Shown here piece after piece: positions 5,050 to 38,761 of a stretch of DNA of 38,761 nt. This DNA is from Pseudomonadota bacterium. GTDB lineage: Bacteria > Desulfobacterota > JAPLJL01. Within the stretch, counting starts at the first letter, position 1; each line of letters begins with the position of its first letter. A program made the position numbers and the translations under genes. The stretch spans positions 1 through 38,761 of the forward strand of contig JAPLJI010000182.1 of NCBI GenBank assembly GCA_026388655.1, written 5' to 3'. The notes under the pieces are model-generated. The model was not told the DNA's origin. It was given only the letters and a program-made list of their open reading frames with translations, and did not search any database.

Positions 5050-5241
5050 TCAATAAATTTCTAATTTCTTAAGACGAATTTCATCTTTAGTTTCTGGTTT
5101 CGGGTTTCGAGTTTCGAGTTTCGAGTTTCAATTGTGGAATTTGATCATTGGAATTTGTTTGGTAATTGAGATTTGGTTATTGGTCATTATTTGGTAATTG
5201 GTGCTTGGTCATTGGAATTTGATTGGTAATTAGTCATTGCC
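5050..5241. repeat. Word-repeat tract (TTTCGAG and TTGGTAATTGG families)
   Basis: No gene. Three near-perfect copies of the heptamer GAGTTTC sit around 5100-5130. They are followed by a run of TTGGTAATTGG/TTGGTCATTGG-like units separated by AATTTG words, up to the ATG at 5242. Related units occur at 7055-7088 and 19335-19370, and the reverse complement of the first family is at 37797-37822. AT content is far above the flanking genes. Confidence 0.75.
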
Positions 5242-5985
5242 ATGAGATACATTAGATATTCGCTTTTCTTTCTCACCCTCTTGCTGCTCACCCCGGCCTT
5301 TACCGTCATCCTCGCCTTCCTCCGGATTTTCGGCCTGGCCTGGACCCCCGGAGGACACATCGGCAAGTTCTGGGCCAATGCCCTGCTCCTCTCCGCCGGG
5401 GTGAAGGTACAGACCTTCGGGATGGAGAACGTTCATCCCTACAAGAAATACATTTTCGTCTCCAACCACGTGAGCCACTTCGACACCCTGGTCCTCCTGG
5501 CCAAGCTGCCCCCCTCCTACCGTTTCCTGGCCAAGCGCGAGCTTTTCCAGATTCCCTTTTTCGGCTGGGCGCTGGCACTCGCCGGGCATATCAAAGTTTC
5601 CCGCGGCCGGAAGGGCGATATCCGGAAAATCCTGGACCAAACTGAAAAGGTTCTGCACAGGGGCACTTCCGTTCACTTTTTCGCCGAAGCGACCCGGAGC
5701 CCGGACGGAAAAATTTATCCCTTCAAGCCGGGGGCGTTTCTCCTGGCCCAGGAGACCCGCGTCCCGATCATTCCGGTGGGACTCCGGGGAACGCGGGATA
5801 TTCTTCCCAAGGGCGCCATGCTCCCCCGCCCCACGCAAGCGATTCTGACCGTGGGCAAGCCGTTCATGGTCCCGGAAGACGGCTCCCGGCTGGCGGAGGT
5901 TCTGGAAAGCGCCCGAAAAACCGTGTCCGCGCTTTCCGGCCAGGAACTCGGCACTTCTCGCCCGAAATCCAGTCACCAGTCCTAG
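5242..5985 (+). CDS. plsC: 1-acyl-sn-glycerol-3-phosphate acyltransferase (PlsC family)
   Basis: 247 residues. An N-terminal hydrophobic segment (about 5-30) anchors it in the inner membrane. The HX4D catalytic motif is NHVSHFD (H76, D81). Block III is FAEATRSPDG (147-156), with the glycine of the usual EGTRS replaced by alanine. Block IV is VPIIPVGLRGT. The family transfers an acyl chain to lysophosphatidate to make phosphatidate. With one PlsC-like gene in view it could equally be an acyltransferase for another lysolipid. There is no Shine-Dalgarno: the ATG directly follows the word-repeat tract. The AT-rich text and antisense ORFs around it are not genes. Confidence 0.9.
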   Translation: MRYIRYSLFFLTLLLLTPAFTVILAFLRIFGLAWTPGGHIGKFWANALLLSAGVKVQTFGMENVHPYKKYIFVSNHVSHFDTLVLLAKLPPSYRFLAKRELFQIPFFGWALALAGHIKVSRGRKGDIRKILDQTEKVLHRGTSVHFFAEATRSPDGKIYPFKPGAFLLAQETRVPIIPVGLRGTRDILPKGAMLPRPTQAILTVGKPFMVPEDGSRLAEVLESARKTVSALSGQELGTSRPKSSHQS

Positions 5986-6204
5986 GTCTCCAGTCCTAAG
6001 TCTTCGAAAATCAGTCCTTAGTTTCCGGTCATCAGTTTTCAGTCAGTATTTCGATTTTTTTCATTCTACCGATATGAGACATGGGCCAGGTGGCTGAGGA
6101 CTTCTTTATATTGACCTTGGACGCGGGATTTCTCCTGCTGGTCGCCAGTTTTATCGAGGGAAGCAAAACCGAAGGACTGAGGACTTAGGACTTTTTTACC
6201 GATT
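5986..6204. repeat. Word-repeat tract (CAGTCCTAAGTC family) with an unlikely 35-codon ORF
   Basis: Units such as CCAGTCCTAGGTCT, CCAGTCCTAAGTCT and ATCAGTCCTTAGTTT follow the plsC-like stop, and GGACTGAGGACTTAGG closes the gap. A + strand ORF at 6081-6188 would encode a mildly hydrophobic 35-residue peptide (MGQVAEDFFILTLDAGF...). It has no ribosome binding site and ends inside the repeat words, so I do not call it. Confidence 0.55.
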
Positions 6205-16854: not shown

Positions 16855-16866
16855 AATAATCCTTTT

Positions 16867-17028
16867 TCTTTAATGACTAATTCCTAATTTCTAATTCCTA
16901 ATTAAATCCCAATGACTAATTCCTAATTCCCAATAAGTAACCGAACCAAACATTTGAAATTTTACATTTGACATTAGACATTTTGAATTTGTTTATTGAT
17001 TAGAAATTCGTCATTAGAAATTAGATAT
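16867..17028. repeat. Word-repeat tract (CTAATTTCTAATTCC family)
   Basis: Between the PfkB gene and gatA. TAATTCCTAATTTCTAATTC units, TTTGACATTAGACATTTTG units and ATTAGAAATTAG units fill the gap, up to the gatA stop. Very AT-rich; no gene or tRNA seen. Confidence 0.75.
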
Positions 17029-18489: not shown

Positions 18490-18499
18490 AACAAAATCA

Positions 18500-18698
18500 A
18501 AACAGGTCTATTTGGTCTGTCTCGTCTATCTGGTCTATTTGGTCCATCAATTCAATTTATGATTGTAGATTGACGATTGTGGATTGAATATTTAAATCAT
18601 CCGTATTCTCTTTTTTCCATTCGTAATTCGCAATTTAATCCGTCATTCCTTTTTGGTTTTCACTCGTCAATCGTCATTCGTCAATCGTCAATTGTTTC
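18500..18698. repeat. Word-repeat tract between gatC and gatA (TCTGGTCTATTTGG and AATCGTCA families)
   Basis: Begins with TCTATTTGGTCTGTCTCGTC-type units (18505-18545). Then it runs through ATTGTAGATTGACGATTGTGG and TCGTCAATCGTCATTCG words up to the gatC stop. The same AATCGTCA words fill 29467-29562, and TCTCTGGTCTGTTTGG words occur at 26820-26855. Confidence 0.78.
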
Positions 18699-19046: not shown

Positions 19047-19112
19047 ATGAAACCAAAGACTCTGATATATTAATCATTGGATTGAGTCTGGCACTTATTG
19101 GGATTTAATCCG

Positions 19113-19281
19113 GGGCTGCCATTCCCGTCCCGCTCCCCGCTTAAGACCTGTGGGGACAGGCTTGACGGGAGGGATCCAGGCCCTTTCCGTCATCCCCGTC
19201 CCGCATCAAAGTGCGGGATAAACTCCAGCGGGGATCCAGAGGCAAGAAATACTGGATTCCGGATCAAGTCCGGAATGACAA
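19113..19281. repeat. REP-like palindromic element(s), GTCATCCCC / GGAATGACA type
   Basis: 19188-19279 opens with CGTCATCCCCG and closes with CCGGAATGACA, with inner hairpins CCCGCATCAAAGTGCGGG and TCCGGATCAAGTCCGGA. A diverged unit (CCATTCCCGTCCCGC ... GGGAGGGATCCAGG) precedes it at 19117-19180. Same family as 31434-31562 and 34844-34913. Confidence 0.8.
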
Positions 19282-19386
19282 TCGAAGAAAAGGGATTTAT
19301 CAAATATCACGTTTGGTTTTAATTATTATCTTGCTTGGTAATTGGATTTTGGTCATTGGTCATTGGTTTTATAGAGGAGGTATAAC

Positions 19387-19749
19387 ATGGCCATCAACGA
19401 TGTCCCCCAGAAATTCTTTTCCCGGCTCAATAGCGCGCTCAAATCCGGCGATTTCAGCCTGGTTCTGGACGTTTTCGTCCCGGCCTCGATCATGGAATAC
19501 AAAATGATCGGGCCCCAGAAATTCATCAACCCCGAACTGATCACGGACGGGCTCAAGTCCATCATCAAAAAAGGAGCGAATTTCGTGATTTCCGAATCGG
19601 CCGTCGGCGGCAACCGCGTGGCGGTCAACTTCGATCTCTACGGCTCCGGCCAGCGAAAGATCACCGGGACGACGATTTTTACCGTTAACGAAAAGGATAA
19701 AATCACCTACCTGGTTTTCGAGCCCGGCTGGAACAAATCCCAGGGATAG
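19387..19749 (+). CDS. Small NTF2/SnoaL-like protein, function unknown
   Basis: 120 residues with an excellent Shine-Dalgarno (AGAGGAGGTATAAC) before the ATG. The pattern of N-terminal helices (DVPQKFFSRLNSALKSGDFSLVLDVF) followed by beta strands (AVNFDLYGSGQRKITGTTIFTVN, ITYLVFEPGW) matches the cone-shaped NTF2-like fold used by SnoaL cyclases, ketosteroid isomerases and many binding proteins. FVPASIMEYKMIGPQKFINPE would line the pocket. There is no clear catalytic Asp pair, so I leave the function open. It is a single-gene unit, followed by the hairpin element at 19771 that could end its transcript. Confidence 0.75.
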   Translation: MAINDVPQKFFSRLNSALKSGDFSLVLDVFVPASIMEYKMIGPQKFINPELITDGLKSIIKKGANFVISESAVGGNRVAVNFDLYGSGQRKITGTTIFTVNEKDKITYLVFEPGWNKSQG

Positions 19750-19770
19750 ATCCAACGCCCTCTATCTCCC

Positions 19771-19854
19771 GGTAGCCGCAGGCTTTAGCCTGCGTTTTAT
19801 ATTAATAAATTTTCAAAGCGGATATCATGTCGCAACCTAAAGGTTGCGGCTACC
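19771..19854. repeat. 84-base element with 10-bp terminal inverted repeats and two internal hairpins
   Basis: Ends are GGTAGCCGCA and TGCGGCTACC, exact reverse complements. Internal hairpins are CGCAGGC-TTTA-GCCTGCG, followed by TTTTAT, and CGCAACC-TAAA-GGTTGCG. The first hairpin plus T-run could act as the terminator of the NTF2-like gene. The structure is MITE-like and no ORF is inside. Confidence 0.8.
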
Positions 19855-19868
19855 ATTATTTTGCTAGT

Positions 19869-19910
19869 GTCATTCTGAGCCCTGAGCCTGTCGAAGGGCG
19901 AAGAATCTCG
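19869..19910. repeat. GTCATTCTGAG...GAAGAATCT dispersed repeat
   Basis: GTCATTCTGAGCCCTGAGCC, then TGTCGAAGGGCGAAGAATCT. I recall closely similar sequences as high-copy intergenic repeats in many bacterial genomes. Copy number here cannot be counted from one window. Confidence 0.6.
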
Positions 19911-19916
19911 CCCTAG

Positions 19917-19966
19917 AACTTTGAACCCTGAACCTTGAACTTAAAACTTTAGACTTCGGACTTTGA
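19917..19966. repeat. Word-repeat tract (TTGAACCTTGAACTT family), first of two
   Basis: Units GAACTTTGAACCCTGAACC, TTGAACTTAAAACTTTAGAC and GGACTTTGAG end about 10 bases before the Smr start. A second copy of the family lies on the other side of that gene at 20306-20344. Confidence 0.75.
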
Positions 19967-19976
19967 GTCAAAAACC

Positions 19977-20303: not shown

Positions 20304-20348
20304 TACTTTGAACTTTGAACCTTGAACTTGAAACTTTGAACTCTTTAC

Positions 20349-21596
20349 TTAATCCTTGCCCTTTTCGAACCCCATCGACTCGGCCACCAACTGCATGATG
20401 TCCACCACCCGGAACTTGTGGTCTTCCCGGCTCTTGGCCGCGTCGCCCAGGTTGCTCTCGTAGAACGGGCAGCAGGATACGATCGTGTCCGCCCCGGTCA
20501 CGTCCTTAGCTTCGTCGAGCCTCCAGTTGGCCACCTCGAGCGCTAAATCCGGGTAAGCCGTCTTCACGCCTCCGCCGCAACCGCAGCATAAGGAATACTG
20601 CCGGATCCGCTCCATCTCCTTAAAGTTAATCCCGGGGATGGACTGGAGCACCCGCCGGGGCGGGTCGAAGATCTGGCTGTATCTCCCGATATGGCAGGGA
20701 TCGTGGTAGGTGGCCACGATCGGCAGTTCCTTTTCGAAGTTGATATCACCTTCCTGGATCAGGCGGTCCAGAAACTCGACCACGTGGAGGATCTCGAACT
20801 TCAGATCCCCGGCGTAATTATGGGAGAAGGTGGAATGGCATCCGGCACAGGCCGTGACCATCGTCTCGATTCCCAGGCTGTTCAGCATCGCGATGTTCTC
20901 CTGACGGTATTTCTCAAACATGTCAACGGCCCCGACCCGGAGCGCGGTCGAGCCACAGCACCTTTCCTTCGCCCCCAGGATCCCGAAATCCACCCCCGCC
21001 AGGCTTAAAACCCGCGCGGCGGTCTCGGCTACGGGGATCAAATCCGATACGTAGGACTCGTTGCAACCCACAAAGAAAAGCACCTTGACCTTTTCTTTGC
21101 TGGCATCCTTTATATTCACGTCGCGGAGCCTTTTCGCCCAGCGCGCCCGGGCGGCCCGTGGGGAAAGCCAGGGGTTGTCATAGTTCAGGATGGACTGGAT
21201 CAGGGTCTGGTGGGCGGGCATGGGACCCTCTTTTTTCACCACGTAGTTGCGGAGCGCCATCATGGCGTTGGACGGTTCCAGGTCCTTGATCGCGTTGCAG
21301 ATCTCCTGGCAGTTCCCGCAGATCGTGCAGGAAAAGATGATTTTCTTGAGATAATCGTCGATCTCGAGTTCGGGCGGATCGCAGGTCAGGGCTCGCACGA
21401 TCTCCTGGGTCCCCGTCCCGGCGTAAGACTCGAATACATACTTGATGTTCCGGGGACAAGCATCGGAATACTTATGGCTCTGTAAAAAATCGGGATGGGT
21501 CATCCGGCACATCCCGCACCGGATGCATTTCCAGGCCTCGTTGCGATACTCGAAAAGAGGCCGAATATTCCGCGCGATCTTTGCCTGAAATGCCAT
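20349..21596 (-). CDS. HdrD/GlpC/LldE-like iron-sulfur oxidoreductase subunit
   Basis: 415 residues. Two N-terminal 4Fe-4S sites: CIRCGMC with a distant CP (SDACPRN), and CTICGNCQEICN. Two CCG domains follow. The first has FFVGCNES, KERCCGSTALRVG and TACAGCHSTF. The second has TYHDPCHIGR, YSLCCGCGGGVKTAYPDLA and VSCCPFYESNL. Both CCG motifs are intact, as in heterodisulfide reductase HdrB/HdrD and in the LldE, GlcF and GlpC partners of flavin oxidases. Role: takes electrons from the FAD subunit and passes them to a quinone or a disulfide-like acceptor. GGAAGGAG precedes the start. It lies 27 bases downstream of the flavoprotein gene and shares its transcript. No membrane helices, so docking to a membrane partner elsewhere is likely. 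Confidence 0.93.
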   Translation of the reverse strand: MAFQAKIARNIRPLFEYRNEAWKCIRCGMCRMTHPDFLQSHKYSDACPRNIKYVFESYAGTGTQEIVRALTCDPPELEIDDYLKKIIFSCTICGNCQEICNAIKDLEPSNAMMALRNYVVKKEGPMPAHQTLIQSILNYDNPWLSPRAARARWAKRLRDVNIKDASKEKVKVLFFVGCNESYVSDLIPVAETAARVLSLAGVDFGILGAKERCCGSTALRVGAVDMFEKYRQENIAMLNSLGIETMVTACAGCHSTFSHNYAGDLKFEILHVVEFLDRLIQEGDINFEKELPIVATYHDPCHIGRYSQIFDPPRRVLQSIPGINFKEMERIRQYSLCCGCGGGVKTAYPDLALEVANWRLDEAKDVTGADTIVSCCPFYESNLGDAAKSREDHKFRVVDIMQLVAESMGFEKGKD

Positions 21597-26776: not shown

Positions 26777-26814
26777 TTAAAGTTCCGTTATTTTTTCTTT
26801 CGCAGGTTCAATCT

Positions 26815-26981
26815 GGGTTCTTTAGTTTCTCTGGTTTCTCTGGTCTGTTTGGTTAACTGATCATCTGATGTCCAGATATCCAAATCCTGATTTCCTGATA
26901 ACCTGATTCCCTGTATTTTTCCGGCCACAATCGTCGAGCAAGCTCGACCACTACATTCGATTACTTGCCACCTGCTACCTG
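26815..26981. repeat. Word-repeat tract with GTCGAG palindrome
   Basis: TTTCTCTGGTCTGTTTGG words and TGATGTCCAGATATCCAAATC words fill the gap, and CACCTGCTACCTGCTACTTG units end it. A palindrome GTCGAGCAAGCTCGAC lies at 26933-26948. The stop codon of the radical SAM gene (TAG on the minus strand) falls inside the last repeat word. Confidence 0.7.
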
Positions 26982-27954: not shown

Positions 27955-28066
27955 TAATATCTTACGCCCGACCGCAGACCGCCGACCGCAGACCGCCGAA
28001 AAAAAATTGTATGATCACTCATTGATTTCGCAGGCTAAAGTCTCTGGTTACCCTCGGACCCTGGAA
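27955..28066. repeat. Word-repeat tract (GACCGCCGACCGCAGACC family)
   Basis: CGACCGCAGACCGCCGACC repeats at 27968-28000, followed by AAAAAAAATTG, a GCAGGCTAAAG word and TTACCCTCGGACCCTGGAACCC words. No gene. It separates the radical SAM start from the DJ-1 stop. Confidence 0.65.
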
Positions 28067-29466: not shown

Positions 29467-29562
29467 CAGTATTCAATTTACGATTTCAGATTGACGATTG
29501 TAGATTAATTTTTTCATTCTTTCGTAAATCGTCAATCGTCAATCAACAATCGTCAATTTTTC
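29467..29562. repeat. Word-repeat tract (AATCGTCA family), second copy
   Basis: GATTGACGATTGTAGATT and AATCGTCAATCGTCAATC words, the same family as 18546-18698. It fills the whole gap between the DUF169 start and the SDR stop, so it touches a start and a stop codon. Confidence 0.8.
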
Positions 29563-30372
29563 TTACTTCCTGCCGACCCACTTCTCCATGGACTTGCTCG
29601 TCCCCAGGAGGTGCGCGATCCGGTCAAACTGGTTGACGGGCAGGACCGCCTTGATGAGGGGAACAAACTTGACCATGAGCGGTTCCCGGATCATGGGGGC
29701 GTCTTTCTTGAAGGCCGCGTAAATCTTGTCCACCATCTGTTCCGGGGTGAGCCACTTGGTCATCTTGGGAGGCTTGACCCCCGCAAACATCCCGGTGGCG
29801 ACAAAACTCGGGCAGACCGTCGTGAATTTCACGTCTTTCAAACCCATTTTCTTGGTCTCCTGCCGGATGGCTTCGGTCATCCCGACCACCGCGAACTTGC
29901 TGGCGCAGTAGGCCGCCAGGTTTACCACCCCCATCAGCCCGGCCGCGGAGGCCAGGTTGATCACGTGGCCGGCCTTTTTCTCGTACAGGTCCGGCAGAAA
30001 CGCCTTCATCATCCACATCACCGCGTTCACGTTCACGTCGATAGTCTTGAAGAGTCTTTCGTCATCGGCTTCCACGAACGGGGCGCCCCAGACCACCCCG
30101 GCGTTGTTGACCAGGACATCGATCTTGCCGATTTTCTTGTGAATATCAGCGGCCATTTCGTAAACCTTTTTCCGGTCGGTGATGTCGCAAATGTATGTGT
30201 GTATCTCAGCTCCCATCTTCTTGAACTCGGCGGCGGTTTTGTCCAGCGCTTCCTTGTTCACGTCGATCAGGACCAGCCGCGCCCCGTCCTGGGCGAACTT
30301 GATGGACAACAGGCGCCCCATCCCCATCGCCGCCCCGGTGATCACCACGATTTTTCCTTTGACGTCTTTCAT
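29563..30372 (-). CDS. Short-chain dehydrogenase/reductase
   Basis: The track start at 30681 is wrong: it reads into the upstream peptidase gene in another frame. The ATG at 30372 follows GGGAGGAGTG and starts MKDVKGKIVVITGAAMGMGRLL, giving 269 residues. NAD(P)-binding TGAAMGMG; VLIDVNKEALDKTAAEF with an aspartate after the second strand, favouring NAD(H); NNAGVVWG; catalytic S in INLASAAGLMG; and YCASK. The C-terminal part (KPPKMTKWLTPEQMVDKIYAAF and the basic NQFDRIAHLLGTSKSMEKWVGRK) is typical of SDRs acting on bulky or acyl substrates. It lies 26 bases after the P1 peptidase stop, probably one operon. Substrate unknown. Confidence 0.92.
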   Translation of the reverse strand: MKDVKGKIVVITGAAMGMGRLLSIKFAQDGARLVLIDVNKEALDKTAAEFKKMGAEIHTYICDITDRKKVYEMAADIHKKIGKIDVLVNNAGVVWGAPFVEADDERLFKTIDVNVNAVMWMMKAFLPDLYEKKAGHVINLASAAGLMGVVNLAAYCASKFAVVGMTEAIRQETKKMGLKDVKFTTVCPSFVATGMFAGVKPPKMTKWLTPEQMVDKIYAAFKKDAPMIREPLMVKFVPLIKAVLPVNQFDRIAHLLGTSKSMEKWVGRK

Positions 30373-30398
30373 CACTCCTCCCTTGGTAAGGATATTTT

Positions 30399-31361
30399 TC
30401 AACCCTGTAAATCCCGCCAGGCGGGAATTATACCAAAACCATCGGCGGCTTTTATCCCCCGGCGGATGGCGTCCGCCAGAAGGACGGATGCGGTATGCCC
30501 CAGGGCGTTGAGATCGGCGGACTCGGCGCCGGCTGAAAGGCAGATGACCAGGTCGCCGTCGTAAAGGGTGTGCGCCGGGGAGATCGCCCGGGAGATCCCG
30601 TCCTGGGCCATCTGCGCCACCTTGATCGCCTGCATCCGGTCCAGCCGGGCGTTGGTGGCGATTACTCCTAGGGTGGTGCATTCTCCTGTGGCTTCTTTTC
30701 CCTTTTCCCCGTGCATCAACCTATGCCCCATCCGAACAAATTCTTTCCCCTCGCGGGTGTTCCGGGCTCCCGCCAGGATTTTCCCATCGGTTTCGACCAC
30801 GTCCCCGTAGGCATTCACGACGGCCAGGGCCCCGATCACCAATCCGGAGGCCGGGGAAAAACTCGCGGTTCCAATCCCCCCTTTCATCCCGAAGGGAGCC
30901 CCAAAAATCTTGCCTACTACCGCCCCGGTCCCCGCTCCCGCGCTCCCCTCTTCCACCGGTCCCGAGGTGGCCGCCTGGCAGGCCCGGTGGGCCATGTCCG
31001 CGTCCGGTCTGCGGAGGGAAAGAAACAGATCGAAAATGACCGCCGTGGGAACGGTGGGAATGTAGGTCTGGTAGAGCAGAAGTCCCTGGCCCTTCTCCTC
31101 CAGGAATCTCATTACCCCGCCCGCCGCGTCCAGCCCAAAAGCGCTGCCCCCGGTCAAAAGCACCGCCTGGATCTCGGTAACCAGGTGAAAACCGGAAACC
31201 GAGTCAAACTGGCGGGTTCCGGTCGCCCCTCCCCCGAGATCGGCCCCGGCCACCGCCCCGGACTCGGTGAGAATCACGGTCAGACCGGTCCGGTTTTCCC
31301 GGTCGGTAAAGTGCCCGACTTTTATCCCCGGGACATCGGTAATGGCGTTATGCCAGTCCAT
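30399..31361 (-). CDS. P1-family (S58, DmpA-like) aminopeptidase
   Basis: 320 residues. ITDVPGIKVGHFTDRENRTGLTVIL is the typical N-terminus. GAVAGADLGGGATGTRQFD, VLLTGGSAFGLDAAGGVMRFLEEKG, and GAGTGAVVGKIFG with GIGTASF are the family blocks. The likely self-cleaved junction and new N-terminal nucleophile lie in GECTTLGVIATNARLD, with threonine in place of the serine of DmpA. A second subunit of about 90 residues would follow. Known activity: D-esterase/L-aminopeptidase or beta-aminopeptidase. With the D-aminoacylase at the left end, it fits scavenging of unusual peptides, but they are 30 kb apart. First gene of an SDR operon. Confidence 0.9.
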   Translation of the reverse strand: MDWHNAITDVPGIKVGHFTDRENRTGLTVILTESGAVAGADLGGGATGTRQFDSVSGFHLVTEIQAVLLTGGSAFGLDAAGGVMRFLEEKGQGLLLYQTYIPTVPTAVIFDLFLSLRRPDADMAHRACQAATSGPVEEGSAGAGTGAVVGKIFGAPFGMKGGIGTASFSPASGLVIGALAVVNAYGDVVETDGKILAGARNTREGKEFVRMGHRLMHGEKGKEATGECTTLGVIATNARLDRMQAIKVAQMAQDGISRAISPAHTLYDGDLVICLSAGAESADLNALGHTASVLLADAIRRGIKAADGFGIIPAWRDLQG

Positions 31362-31693
31362 AAAAACATCCTAAGTCATCAGTTCTGAAGCTTTACCCGG
31401 GGTTAACCCCAGCAGGAACCCATTCTCCCCGATTGTCATTCCCATCCCGCATCAGAGTGCGGGATAAACTCCAGTGGGAATCAACCCCTTCGTCTGTCAT
31501 CCCCGCGAAAGCGGGGATCCAGAAAAAATAACTGGATTCGGCATCAAGTGCGGAATGACGGGAATAAATTAACTCAGCAAGATCACGGGAAATAAGTAGT
31601 GAAAAACCGGAATACTCTTCTATTGTCTACTCAACTGACCTTGATCGCTCGAACCCTGGAACCCTTGGACCCGTAAACCCTTGATTAGGCTAT
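31362..31693. repeat. 332-base gap with two REP-like units (31434-31562)
   Basis: No gene. Unit one is TGTCATTCCCATCCCGCATC ... CCAGTGGGAATC (31434-31482). Unit two is TGTCATCCCCGCGAAAGCGG ... TGCGGAATGACG (31495-31560), with hairpin CCCCGCGAAAGCGGGG. The remaining bases include TTGATCGCTCGAACCCTGG, ACCCTTGGACCC word repeats and a CCCGGGGTTAACCCC near-palindrome. The propeller lipoprotein stop is at its right end. Confidence 0.75.
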
Positions 31694-34772: not shown

Positions 34773-34789
34773 TAATCTTTAATGAAACT

Positions 34790-34946
34790 CCCCGCGGCAA
34801 GACCGCGGGGTATCTAAATCAAAAAGACTCTTATTTTGTCTATTGTCATTCCTGCGGAAGCAGGAATCCAGAAAAACAAAATAACTGGATTCCTCATCAA
34901 GTGCGGAATGACAGAAATAAGGTAACCCCGTGGCAAAACCACGGGG
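34790..34946. repeat. Composite element: TGTCATTCC unit nested between two matching hairpins
   Basis: The left hairpin CCCCGCGG-CAAGA-CCGCGGGG (34790-34810) and the right hairpin CCCCGTGG-CAAAA-CCACGGGG (34926-34946) share stem length and loop form. Between them, 34844-34913 is a 70-base REP-like unit with exact 9-bp ends TGTCATTCC and GGAATGACA. No ORF. The rest of the 34773-35094 gap holds no gene. Confidence 0.8.
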
Positions 34947-35094
34947 AATTACCAGTTAAAGATAGATGGCTTCGCCTTTTCACTTTTCTTTTTTCTTCTC
35001 AATTATCAACCAACCCTGAATATTCTCCAACCGTAAACATGAAAATGTGATATAAATCTGAAATATTAAAGATGTTTGTAAAGGGGGGTTTTCC

Positions 35095-36189: not shown

Positions 36190-36241
36190 GCGGAATATAA
36201 ATCCGGAAAATGCATTTAGTATTTTCGAATATTATGTAGTT

Positions 36242-36284
36242 GCCCGATTTATCGGGCTCTTTAAAAAAACGCCGATGAATCGGC
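36242..36284 (+). terminator. Two tandem hairpins after pfkA
   Basis: GCCCGA-TTTA-TCGGGC (36242-36257), then TCTTTAAAAAAAC, then GCCGA-TGAA-TCGGC (36271-36284). The T-run is weak, so termination strength is uncertain. The gap around it (36190-36435) holds no gene. Confidence 0.4.
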
Positions 36285-36369
36285 ACACTGCAAAAATATC
36301 CACTCGCGAAAGACGTTAGTGCAAATCCAACTGCATTTTTCTGGATAAATTCAAATTCACAATAATGAA

Positions 36370-36435: not shown

Positions 36436-37689
36436 TTACTTGGTGTACTTGTTGGCCAGATCGAGCGTGTTCTTGACCCGCAGGCGGTCGAAAATCAGGG
36501 CAAAGCGGGCCTCGAGTTCCTCCTCTAGTTTCCCCCGCACCTTTTCCGGAAGGTCCCAGAGCGCCTGCTTGAACGGGCCGTAAACCTTCTTCCGGGTTTT
36601 ATAAATGAATTGCTCCTCCGTCATCCCCGGTTTCTTCTCGTCGGCGCACTTCTGATCGAGGTACCGGTACATTTCCTCCCGGAGCTCCCGGGGAAAATTC
36701 GGGCTGTCGAGCAGGAGGTTCTGGAAACCGGTGGCCAGGTGCACCTCGGCGCACTCCACTTCGGGGAAAAGGTGAAAGGCCTCCTCGGGAAGCGTGGAGG
36801 CCCCGTGCTGGACCGCCCCGGCCATGCCAAACTCGGAACGGGCCAGCGCGGAAAGCTTTTTCAGGGTCTCAAAGTCCAGCTCCACCTTGGCCACGCTGCC
36901 GTCCGCGAGGGGAACTCCCCCGTGGGTGGTGCCGGTCTGGATGCTGATCTTGGAAATCCCCTCCAGTCTCTGACCTAATTTTTTCAGCTCCCGGGAATAA
37001 CCTTCCATGAAAGCCCGGAGATCCTCCTCGGTTGAGTTCTTGGCCCCCACCTCCCCGATCTCCCCCCCGATGGAAACCTCCTTGCCTTTGCTTTCCTTTT
37101 CCCGGATGAAGGCGGTGAGCTCGGCGGTGATCCGGCAGTTGTTTTCCTGCTGGGCGAGAATCGTGGGCTGTTTCAGATCCACCACGGTGGAGGCGTCAAT
37201 GTCGATATTGTAGAACCCCGCCTCCAGCGACTCGGAGATAAGCTTCTTCAGGTTTCCGATCTCGCCTTCCCGGTTTTCCCGGAAAAGCCGGGTCCGGACC
37301 TGGTAATGATCGCCCTGCAGGCAAACCGGCCCGGGGAATTTCTCCGCCGCCGCGGCGGCGATAATCTGGGAGGCGTATTCCGCCGGGTTCTGGAAGGTGT
37401 AATCCATCTCCGAGCGGGCGATCTCAAATACCAGGAGTCCCACCTTTTCCCGCTGGGCGGCCCGATAGGCCGCCCGGGCGGTGAAATAGGTCATCCCGCG
37501 GATGTTGCAAGCCGGCACGGAAAGCCCGCCGAATTCGCCCCGGCTCCTGGCTTCGTAAAGTCTTTTGACGGAGGCGATATTTACCCCTTCCTTGACCGCC
37601 TTTTCCCGGAGAGACTTCTGGGCGGCCTTCTTCTCTTCCTCTTTACTTGAGAGCGAAGCCGCGCGCGCCAATTTTTCCCACTCGTTCAT
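36436..37689 (-). CDS. Class II (metal-dependent) ketose-bisphosphate aldolase, long form
   Basis: 417 residues. An N-terminal helical extension of about 55 residues (NEWEKLARAASLSSKEEEKKAAQK) is not in standard class II aldolases of 280-360. The core order matches the family: catalytic D-H in LQGDHYQ, DIDASTVVDL, metal-region E in GGEIGEVGAKNST, H in TTHGGVPL after ISKISIQT, H in AVQHGASTLPEEAF. The C-terminal 60 residues (YKTRKKVYGPFKQALWDLP) are also extra. Cleaves fructose-1,6-bisphosphate or tagatose-bisphosphate to triose phosphates; which substrate cannot be decided. With pfkA next door on the opposite strand it forms a glycolysis pair. It has a GGGGGG box before the ATG. Confidence 0.88.
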   Translation of the reverse strand: MNEWEKLARAASLSSKEEEKKAAQKSLREKAVKEGVNIASVKRLYEARSRGEFGGLSVPACNIRGMTYFTARAAYRAAQREKVGLLVFEIARSEMDYTFQNPAEYASQIIAAAAAEKFPGPVCLQGDHYQVRTRLFRENREGEIGNLKKLISESLEAGFYNIDIDASTVVDLKQPTILAQQENNCRITAELTAFIREKESKGKEVSIGGEIGEVGAKNSTEEDLRAFMEGYSRELKKLGQRLEGISKISIQTGTTHGGVPLADGSVAKVELDFETLKKLSALARSEFGMAGAVQHGASTLPEEAFHLFPEVECAEVHLATGFQNLLLDSPNFPRELREEMYRYLDQKCADEKKPGMTEEQFIYKTRKKVYGPFKQALWDLPEKVRGKLEEELEARFALIFDRLRVKNTLDLANKYTK

Positions 37690-37826
37690 AACCCCCCCTT
37701 TTTAAAACCTTTCTCCCCCTGATTATCGCCTTTATATTTCTTCCGTAACCATCATCTTATAAAATCCCGGGCGGATCGTGCTTTTTCTTCCCCCCAACTC
37801 GAAACCAGAAACTCGAAACAACAAAC

Positions 37827-38761
37827 TTATTTTTTTCTTTTTCCGCTCCGTCCGGAAACGCTCCGGAGCTTGTATTCCAAGCTGTCCACCAGGGCCTGCC
37901 AGCTGGCCTCGATGATATTCCGGGAAACCCCCACCGTTCCCCAGCTCTTTCTCCCGTCGCTGGATTCGATCAGGACCCGGACCGGGGCGGCGGTGCCCTC
38001 CTTCTCCGAGAGAACCCGGACCTTGTAGTCCTCCAGGCGAATCTCGGAGAGCGGCGGGTAGAACTTCTCCAGGGCCTTGCGCAGGGCGTTGTCCAGCGCG
38101 TTCACCGGCCCGTTCCCGAGGGCCGCGGTGTGCTCCACCTTCCCGTTTACGTCCACCATGATCGTGGCCTCGGAAATGACCGGTTCATTCTCGGTGCGTT
38201 TCTCGTTGATCACCCGGAACCCGTGCAGCCGGAAATATTTCTTCTTCCCCTCGATCGCCCGCCGGAGGATCAGCTCGAAGCTGCCCTCGGCCCCCTCGAA
38301 TTGAAATCCCTCCTTCTCGAGCTCCTTGAGCTCCCGGAGGAGCTCGCCGGTCCGGGGATCGTCGGCCTTGAGCCTGATCCCGTATTCGCGGGCCTTGGCC
38401 ACCACCGTGGAACGGCCCGACTGGTCCGAAACCAGGACCTTCCGCCGGTTCCCGATCTTTCCCGGGTCAACATGCTCGTAGGTAGGCGAGTGCCGCTCGA
38501 CCGCGCTGATGTGCATTCCGCCCTTGTGGGCGAAGGCATTGGCCCCGACATAGGGCTGGTGCCGGTTGGGCACCTGGTTCAGGATCTCGTCCACGAAATG
38601 AGAAACCTCGGAGAGCCGGGAGAGCGCGCGGTCGGAGACGCAATCCACCCCCAGCTTGAGCTTGAGCGCGGGGATGATCGAGACCAAATTGGCATTACCA
38701 CAGCGTTCCCCGATCCCGTTGATCGTGCCCTGGACCTGGACCGCCCCCAGCCGGACCGCGG
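37827..38761 (-). CDS. cimA: Citramalate synthase-type protein, 5' part cut by window edge
   Basis: The track starts at 38687, but the same frame continues through the right edge ([23 protein letters not shown]), so the true start is outside. The C-terminal 311 residues are present. [22 protein letters not shown], then [23 protein letters not shown], belong to the CimA/LeuA linker. The last 120 residues form the LeuA-like allosteric dimer domain ([29 protein letters not shown]). CimA joins pyruvate and acetyl-CoA into citramalate for isoleucine synthesis; 2-isopropylmalate synthase is the alternative. [14 protein letters not shown] is the form I associate with CimA. No partner isomerase is in the window. 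A reverse-complement TTTCGAG repeat tract lies just after the stop (37797-37822). Confidence 0.88.

Follow-up and report, generated by a model that had tools for sequence, protein, structure and literature searches.

Short polar heptamer arrays of many words in the intergenic DNA of a Desulfobacterota bacterium

The excess of heptamer repeats in bacterial intergenic DNA has been known for years, and the rules on unit number (four) and strand that such repeats follow were formerly ascribed to G-quadruplexes or to the contact length of the polymerase. Two examples are the GGGAATC repeats of Xanthomonas and the GGGGA(C/T)T repeats of Nostoc, each a single G-rich, quadruplex-forming intergenic heptamer with a four-unit preference, an outward strand bias and persisting sites; the four units were tied to quadruplexes by the authors of that study (PMC4692102). 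Among the cyanobacterial STRRs, which include hairpin-forming repeats in intergenic DNA (PMC2670836), three heptanucleotides are reported in Calothrix according to PMC4692102. Geobacter metallireducens has dispersed sites of four or five heptamers in tandem, which form pairs on opposite strands with variable spacing (PMC2700814), and the TAACTGA heptamer of the Beggiatoaceae forms intergenic direct repeats of 2-6 units with a patchy phylogenetic distribution (PMC4679880).

The tracts reported here are a multi-word variant of these known, unexplained heptamer repeats. With those of Xanthomonas and Nostoc they share a 7-base intergenic unit, arrays of about four units, an outward strand bias and close inverted pairs (26:3 in the genome studied here, 24:15 in its sister species G002). 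They differ in having about ninety words, mostly non-quadruplex, in place of one G-rich, quadruplex-capable word, and are further set apart by word replacement at orthologous sites and by a restricted unit alphabet. Several degenerate heptanucleotide words in one genome are also a feature described for the cyanobacterial STRRs; in the excerpts available the STRR vocabulary is much smaller, and polarity is not among the features that those excerpts report. Unlike the tracts described here, the Geobacter sites fall into few consensus classes, have been read as binding sites of a global regulator or as RNA elements and lie in part within genes (PMC2700814), whereas the Beggiatoaceae repeats consist of one word just upstream of start codons, with related heptamers being rare (PMC4679880).

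The window, i.e. the whole stretch of 38,761 nucleotides that was analysed, forms contig 120 of a draft genome of 3.56 Mb in 194 contigs with 94% completeness. Close relatives of one of its proteins are found in the records 'bacterium isolate STA_72' and 'Proteobacteria bacterium isolate LacPavin_0920_SED1_MAG_56_8'. An array typically has four or so degenerate heptamers, 8- and 9-mers being minor classes. The arrays draw on a vocabulary of about ninety words and run outward from the nearest gene to mid-gap, beyond which their reverse complements are found. All tracts named in a preliminary description of the window are present where it had placed them, and the following arrays were mapped:

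1216-1240, - strand: GCTCTTT-family array, right half of gap 1068-1353
1265-1290: CTGTTGGT array of the 8-/9-base word class
1289-1331, - strand: TGCCCCT/TGCTCTT-family array, right half of gap 1068-1353, lag-7 score 16
5089-5129, + strand, outward: GTTTCGA-family (TTTCGAG) heptamer array, lag-7 score 28, at position 0.31 (left half) of gap 5050-5241
5139-5231, - strand: TTGGTAATTGG-family heptamer array found by TRF, outward form TACCAAT, right half of the same gap; about 90% identity over 49 bp to L026:12668 and L045:4857
5971-6003, no strand: CAGTCCT-family array at the 3' end of the PlsC-like ORF (which ends at 5985), overlapping its last codons
6173-6193, - strand: AGGACTT array, inverted partner of 5971-6003
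16871-16934, + strand: TTCTAAT-family arrays (CTAATTCC), left half, with matches in L025, L029, L039 and L042
16952-16982, - strand: ATTAGAC-type inverted array, right half
18505-18548, no strand: GGTCTATTT 9-base word array
18561-18587, + strand: ATTGACG-family (AATCGTC) array, left arm
18660-18695, - strand: inverted right arm (AATCGTC array) with the AGTGAAAACC scaffold on its outward side
19349-19367, - strand: TTGGTCA array upstream of the gene at 19387
19911-19963, - strand: GAACTTT-family (TTGAACC) array upstream of the Smr-domain gene
20305-20342, - strand: GAACTTT-family (TTGAACC) array between the convergent Smr gene and 20349-21596
26818-26853 (26812-26844 in a second delimitation), no strand: TCTGGTTTC 9-base word array
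26885-26913, no strand: CTGATTTCC-type 8-base array, CCTGATTx
27968-27999, + strand: GACCGCC-family array
29472-29506, + strand: ATTGACG-type left arm in gap 29467-29562
29522-29557, - strand: AATCGTC right arm in gap 29467-29562, at position ~0.76 with ORF 29563-30681 taken as a gene
31639-31684, no strand: CCTTGAAC 8-base word array
37796-37827, - strand: AACTCGA array between one gene that ends at 37689 and another that starts at 37827

The tract phenomenon is genuine and extends across the whole genome, of which 702 kb, with 425 gaps and about 145 kb of intergenic DNA, were sampled. About 1.54 Mb were sampled from the sister species, which belongs to the same genus (identity of 74-77% for the window's PlsC-like protein, with a median of 81% across orthologues). 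These are the two well-sampled species, all genomes being MAG drafts, and gene edges were taken from a simple hexamer-scored ORF caller instead of a curated annotation. The contigs of the window's own genome were picked for matches to heptamer patterns, which may slightly raise the densities but cannot produce the observed contrasts.

In the intergenic DNA of this genome the match excess is 0.297 at lag 7, 0.287 at lag 14 and 0.281 at lag 21, against a background of about 0.26, and by the same periodicity measure no such excess is seen in its coding DNA. At one threshold, 226 lag-7 tracts are found in the 425 gaps, compared with 2.6 in dinucleotide-preserving shuffles, so that a base-composition model, agreement with which the preliminary description had named as a refutation, clearly fails; strict tracts cover 4.7% of the intergenic DNA. 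An equal amount of coding DNA yields 6.8 tracts. The earlier statement that genes are free of them therefore holds as a strong depletion but not as an absence, as the array at the end of the PlsC-like ORF also illustrates. Lags 8 and 9 give 43 tracts each (about 2 expected), whereas lag 10 yields 11 and lag 11 yields 6, with no long tract among them; of the proposed word lengths of 7-11 bases, 7 is thus retained, with minor classes of 8 and 9. Four units are found in 81 of the 226 tracts, three in 55 and five in 44. Phase-variable microsatellites classically have near-identical units and a variable copy number; here the units are degenerate and restricted and mostly present in 3-5 copies, in line with the earlier view that these are not simple microsatellites. 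A far longer array of about 19 nearly perfect CTATCTG units (L032:3211-3347) is a possible recent expansion.

The 226 tracts fall into 91 families when rotation and strand are disregarded, compared with about 193 for 226 random intergenic 7-mers, and identical words occur in separate gaps 12 times more often than with random 7-mers. The reappearance of families at distant gaps, already noticed in the window, is thus far above chance. The two species have 26 families in common (4.6 expected). Exact AATCGTC 14-mers are present in 72, 23 and 33 copies in three genomes of the genus and in 0-3 copies per genome in 294 other genomes of the phylum. A genome-wide search of G174, from the distant family f19, gave 20 exact arrays of GTTTCGR, whose A/G alternation matches that seen in the window's genus; they could stem from transfer, from ancient descent or from convergence. 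AAGGTTC recurs seven times in G008, from another distant family. A locus of G131, a distantly related genome from another family of the phylum (L087, 440-698 and 1496-1662), likewise carries the words AAGGTTC and ATTGACG, and there ATTGACG has an inverted partner.

Variation among units follows narrow rules. In 183 units of the ATTGACG family, positions 1, 3 and 7 are practically invariant (182-183 of 183), and changes at the other positions comprise 110 transversions and 7 transitions; because variation is restricted in this way, random mutational decay is excluded as the source of degeneracy in this family. The GTTTCGA and GCATAGA families likewise combine fixed cores with few permitted alternatives. 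Within tracts, the order of unit variants resembles random draws from the family, as judged against heptad-permuted arrays. Copying of whole tracts was also considered, as BLAST matches between gaps seemed convincing, but exact sharing equals that in heptad-permuted controls. A single degenerate grammar for all words (MAMYYNK, obtained by EM alignment) was rejected as well, lying within about 2 sd of random 7-mers when each family is counted once. The absence of a significant grammar across families argues against one cognate protein of the kind that binds ribbon-helix-helix operator arrays (omega heptads, MetJ 8-mers). The families, described earlier as unrelated, are indeed distinct in sequence but have period, copy number and polarity in common.

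These data bear on the idea that replication slippage acts purely locally in each gap and that the vocabulary is set by slippage-prone sequence alone. Heptamers are over-represented among bacterial SSRs, with the polymerase contact length proposed as the reason (PMC4692102), and low-density heptamer tracts are present elsewhere in the phylum, both of which would suit such a process. However, it does not predict a restricted, transversion-dominated alphabet or a re-use of families far above that of random 7-mers, and independent slippage predicts no fixed handedness of words relative to gene edges. Already strained by the restricted alphabet and the polarity, slippage alone appears quite improbable.

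At the left edge of gaps a given word keeps to one orientation, and at the right edge it is found as its reverse complement, whatever the gene direction. The two orientations occur at left and right edges, respectively, in ratios of 21:1 and 0:11 for ATTGACG, 22:1 and 1:18 for GTTTCGA, 39:3 and 0:15 for AAAGTTC, 36:0 and 1:13 for GCATAGA and 0:8 and 9:0 for ATTAGAA. Orientations trained on the window's own genome predict the gap half of 349 out of 418 tracts in the sister species (349:69), and the reverse training is correct for 151 of 190 (151:39). Consistent tracts prevail in single-tract gaps (105:15 in the sister species, 56:18 in the own genome) and near the edges of convergent gaps (55:3 and 16:3); near the edges of divergent gaps the ratios are 12:1 and 5:4. 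Sign strings along a gap take the form '+...+-...-', with 101 '+-' and 10 '-+' transitions and one switch at mid-gap, and the outward strand mostly has more G than C at the left edge and more C than G at the right. In the window, all lag-7 tracts with an assigned orientation obey this polarity once ORF 29563-30681 is counted as a gene. Since GTTTCGA contains no stop triplet in either orientation, the polarity is not an artefact of ORF ends, an explanation excluded by such stop-free words together with the presence of polarity in all gap types; AAAGTTC has a stop triplet in its disfavoured orientation only. Words of period 9 show weak polarity and those of period 8 none. Outside the genus, where tracts are too few, 7 are consistent and 6 are not.

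Tracts that share both a gap and a family and are separated by 30 bp or more are inverted in 26 gaps and direct in 3 in the own genome, with a weaker bias (24:15) in the sister species. The same family is found at both gap ends 13 times in the own genome (1.8 expected) and 11 times in the sister species (5.6 expected). A polarity that runs outward from either gene edge and switches once at mid-gap would be explained neatly if 3' ends at breaks in gaps were extended with word arrays in a telomere-like manner and then joined, leaving outward words on both sides, and the strand that leaves the gene is indeed mostly G-rich. Ninety words, however, would require many templates, and neither a reverse transcriptase (PF00078) nor Ku was found in the genus set used for enzyme searches (G000, G001 and G002, drafts 82-94% complete); such break healing is very improbable. 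Quadruplex formation, the explanation offered for the heptamers of Xanthomonas and Nostoc, might be suspected from the four-unit preference and the strand placement, both as reported there (PMC4692102). A GGG quadruplex is possible in only 7 of 665 tracts, though, and a GG quadruplex in 157, and tracts without even GG potential keep their polarity (265:47 and 127:35). As a general cause quadruplexes are refuted here, and their probability is close to nil.

Tract coverage peaks within 50 nt of stop codons, amounting to 15% in the first 25 nt past them and to about 5% or less beyond 100 nt, and stands at a low 3% in the 25 nt ahead of start codons. Among 78 orthologous gap pairs with the sister species, tracts are present in both gaps of 18, against 10.7 expected (P=0.0005, length-stratified). 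The tracts are therefore not missing from the same loci in relatives, an outcome that the preliminary description would have counted against itself; sites persist and words differ. With a locus from a further MAG (L049) added, words at persisting sites agree within one mismatch in 5 of 22 cases, no better than the 3.5 given by random pairing. The TTCTAAT words of window gap 16855-17028 are replaced by AAACTCG and AATCGTC in the orthologous L049 gap, AATCGTC of gap 18490-18698 by TCATAGG and GAACGTT, GAACTTT of gap 19750-19976 by TTTCGAG and the GACCGCC array at 27968-27999 by CGTTGCT words. One orthologous gap (L015/L145) differs by exactly one 7-base unit, AAACTCG. The keeping of sites and swapping of words between sister species argues against ordinary microsatellite decay and against word-specific regulation.

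A structural or regulatory use of the tracts had been suggested from the window. Its word-specific form is disfavoured on three grounds: persisting sites exchange their words, there is no co-variation between the arms of a gap, and the density of tracts in divergent gaps comes close to that in convergent ones. A structural use independent of the words is possible. Arrays at gene edges might punctuate transcription in both directions, as insulators or terminators, with selection on position and polarity and the words left free. The coverage peak next to stop codons, the G/C asymmetry of the outward strand and the persistence of sites between species would agree with this, as would the better folding of gaps with at least two tracts compared to tract-free gaps (z of -3.0 versus -1.6). 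On the other hand, the density in divergent gaps (1.17/kb) is not much below that in convergent (1.42) or co-directional (1.64) gaps, polarity is independent of gene direction and, as the arms do not co-vary, no RNA hairpin is apparently under selection. A role as punctuation is conceivable but doubtful. RNA hairpins as the selected feature were rejected for the same lack of co-variation, and the window has no Rfam match.

The most likely mechanism, to which we assign a probability of roughly 45%, is that the tracts make up a population of short, polar repeats spread through the intergenic DNA of the genome and maintained by slippage and ectopic, polarity-preserving copying. Replication slippage would add and remove units in 7-nt steps, as the single-unit difference between orthologous gaps suggests. 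Unit variants may recirculate among arrays through short-homology ectopic template switching or gene conversion, which would lead to a common, limited vocabulary whose units are ordered at random. If copying is guided by homology, the orientation of words relative to gene edges would be inherited from putative founder inverted-repeat elements and would seldom flip. Sites by gene ends would persist either because insertions are tolerated there or because they are weakly useful irrespective of the word. The copy mechanism on short words proposed earlier fits the restricted variants found genome-wide, the random unit order and the 7-base indel. The excess of gaps with one family at both ends and the A-rich scaffold common after ATTGACG arrays also favour the mechanism. 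No copying enzyme was identified, the Y1 transposases not being tied to tracts and PF00078 and Ku being absent from the three genus genomes. Against slippage and copying speak the inter-arm spacers, most of which are not visibly homologous, unlike the prediction for a simple inverted-repeat founder; the tight number of 3-5 units, unexplained by free slippage; and the weak within-gap inverted pairing in the sister species (24:15) along with the lack of polarity of 8-base words.

The paired arms also invite comparison with MITEs or REPs, dispersed mobile palindromes that a transposase such as Y1 (RAYT) would move, with the heptamer arrays as inverted ends. Like REP/BIME sequences, the tracts are dispersed, intergenic and inverted, and seven Y1_Tnp matches are present in the genome. 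Some gaps hold both arms of one family, an A-rich scaffold is common after ATTGACG arrays (recurrent form AGTGAAAACC) and a few spacers recur. However, among 33 inverted-arm pairs read few spacers were recurrent and most were not visibly homologous, so that the conserved interior expected of a MITE is missing, and unit order carries no signal of descent at the level of tracts. The two Y1 loci inspected (of seven) do not share a flanking array, L171 being without a tract and L170 having an inverted pair of other words. The usual RAYT substrate is a GTAG-type palindrome; the heptamer tracts lack it, and such palindromes occur separately in the genome. Mobile palindromes are accordingly a rather unlikely source of the tracts as a whole. 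A spacer, CGAGGTCTTGCGAGGGA, is joined to ATTGACG arms in five copies in two species (L026, L025, L048 and, in G002, L149), and with these arms it is perhaps a true mobile element with arrays as ends.

A bolder proposal is that a dedicated, word-agnostic machinery writes or recopies heptamer arrays of about 28 bp at the edges of genes, drawing on a common lexicon and using in every case the strand that leaves the gene, which would give gene blocks polar ends and would make the single-word repeats of Xanthomonas and Nostoc reduced versions; we consider it unlikely. Since dozens of non-quadruplex words obey the four-unit and strand rules, and words are exchanged at persisting sites, these rules are separate from any given sequence. 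The origin of bacterial heptamer repeats thereby becomes testable: any mechanism must explain the period of 7, the number of about four units, the restricted alphabet and why polarity follows gene edges and not transcription. Such tracts should not be taken for word-specific regulatory motifs.

Two other kinds of repeat were observed in the window. GTAG-bounded palindromes resembling RAYT REP elements lie at 19770-19855 and 36230-36330 (GTAGCCGCAGGCTTTAGCCTGCG...; GTAGTTGCCCGATTTATCGGGC). Dispersed palindromic repeats of 100-200 bp, of the type TGTCATTCC...GGAATCCAG ... CTGGATTCC...GGAATGACA, are found at 34773-35094, 31362-31693 and 19050-19300; many of them are at least 90% identical to copies in other gaps, and they are distinct from the heptamer tracts.
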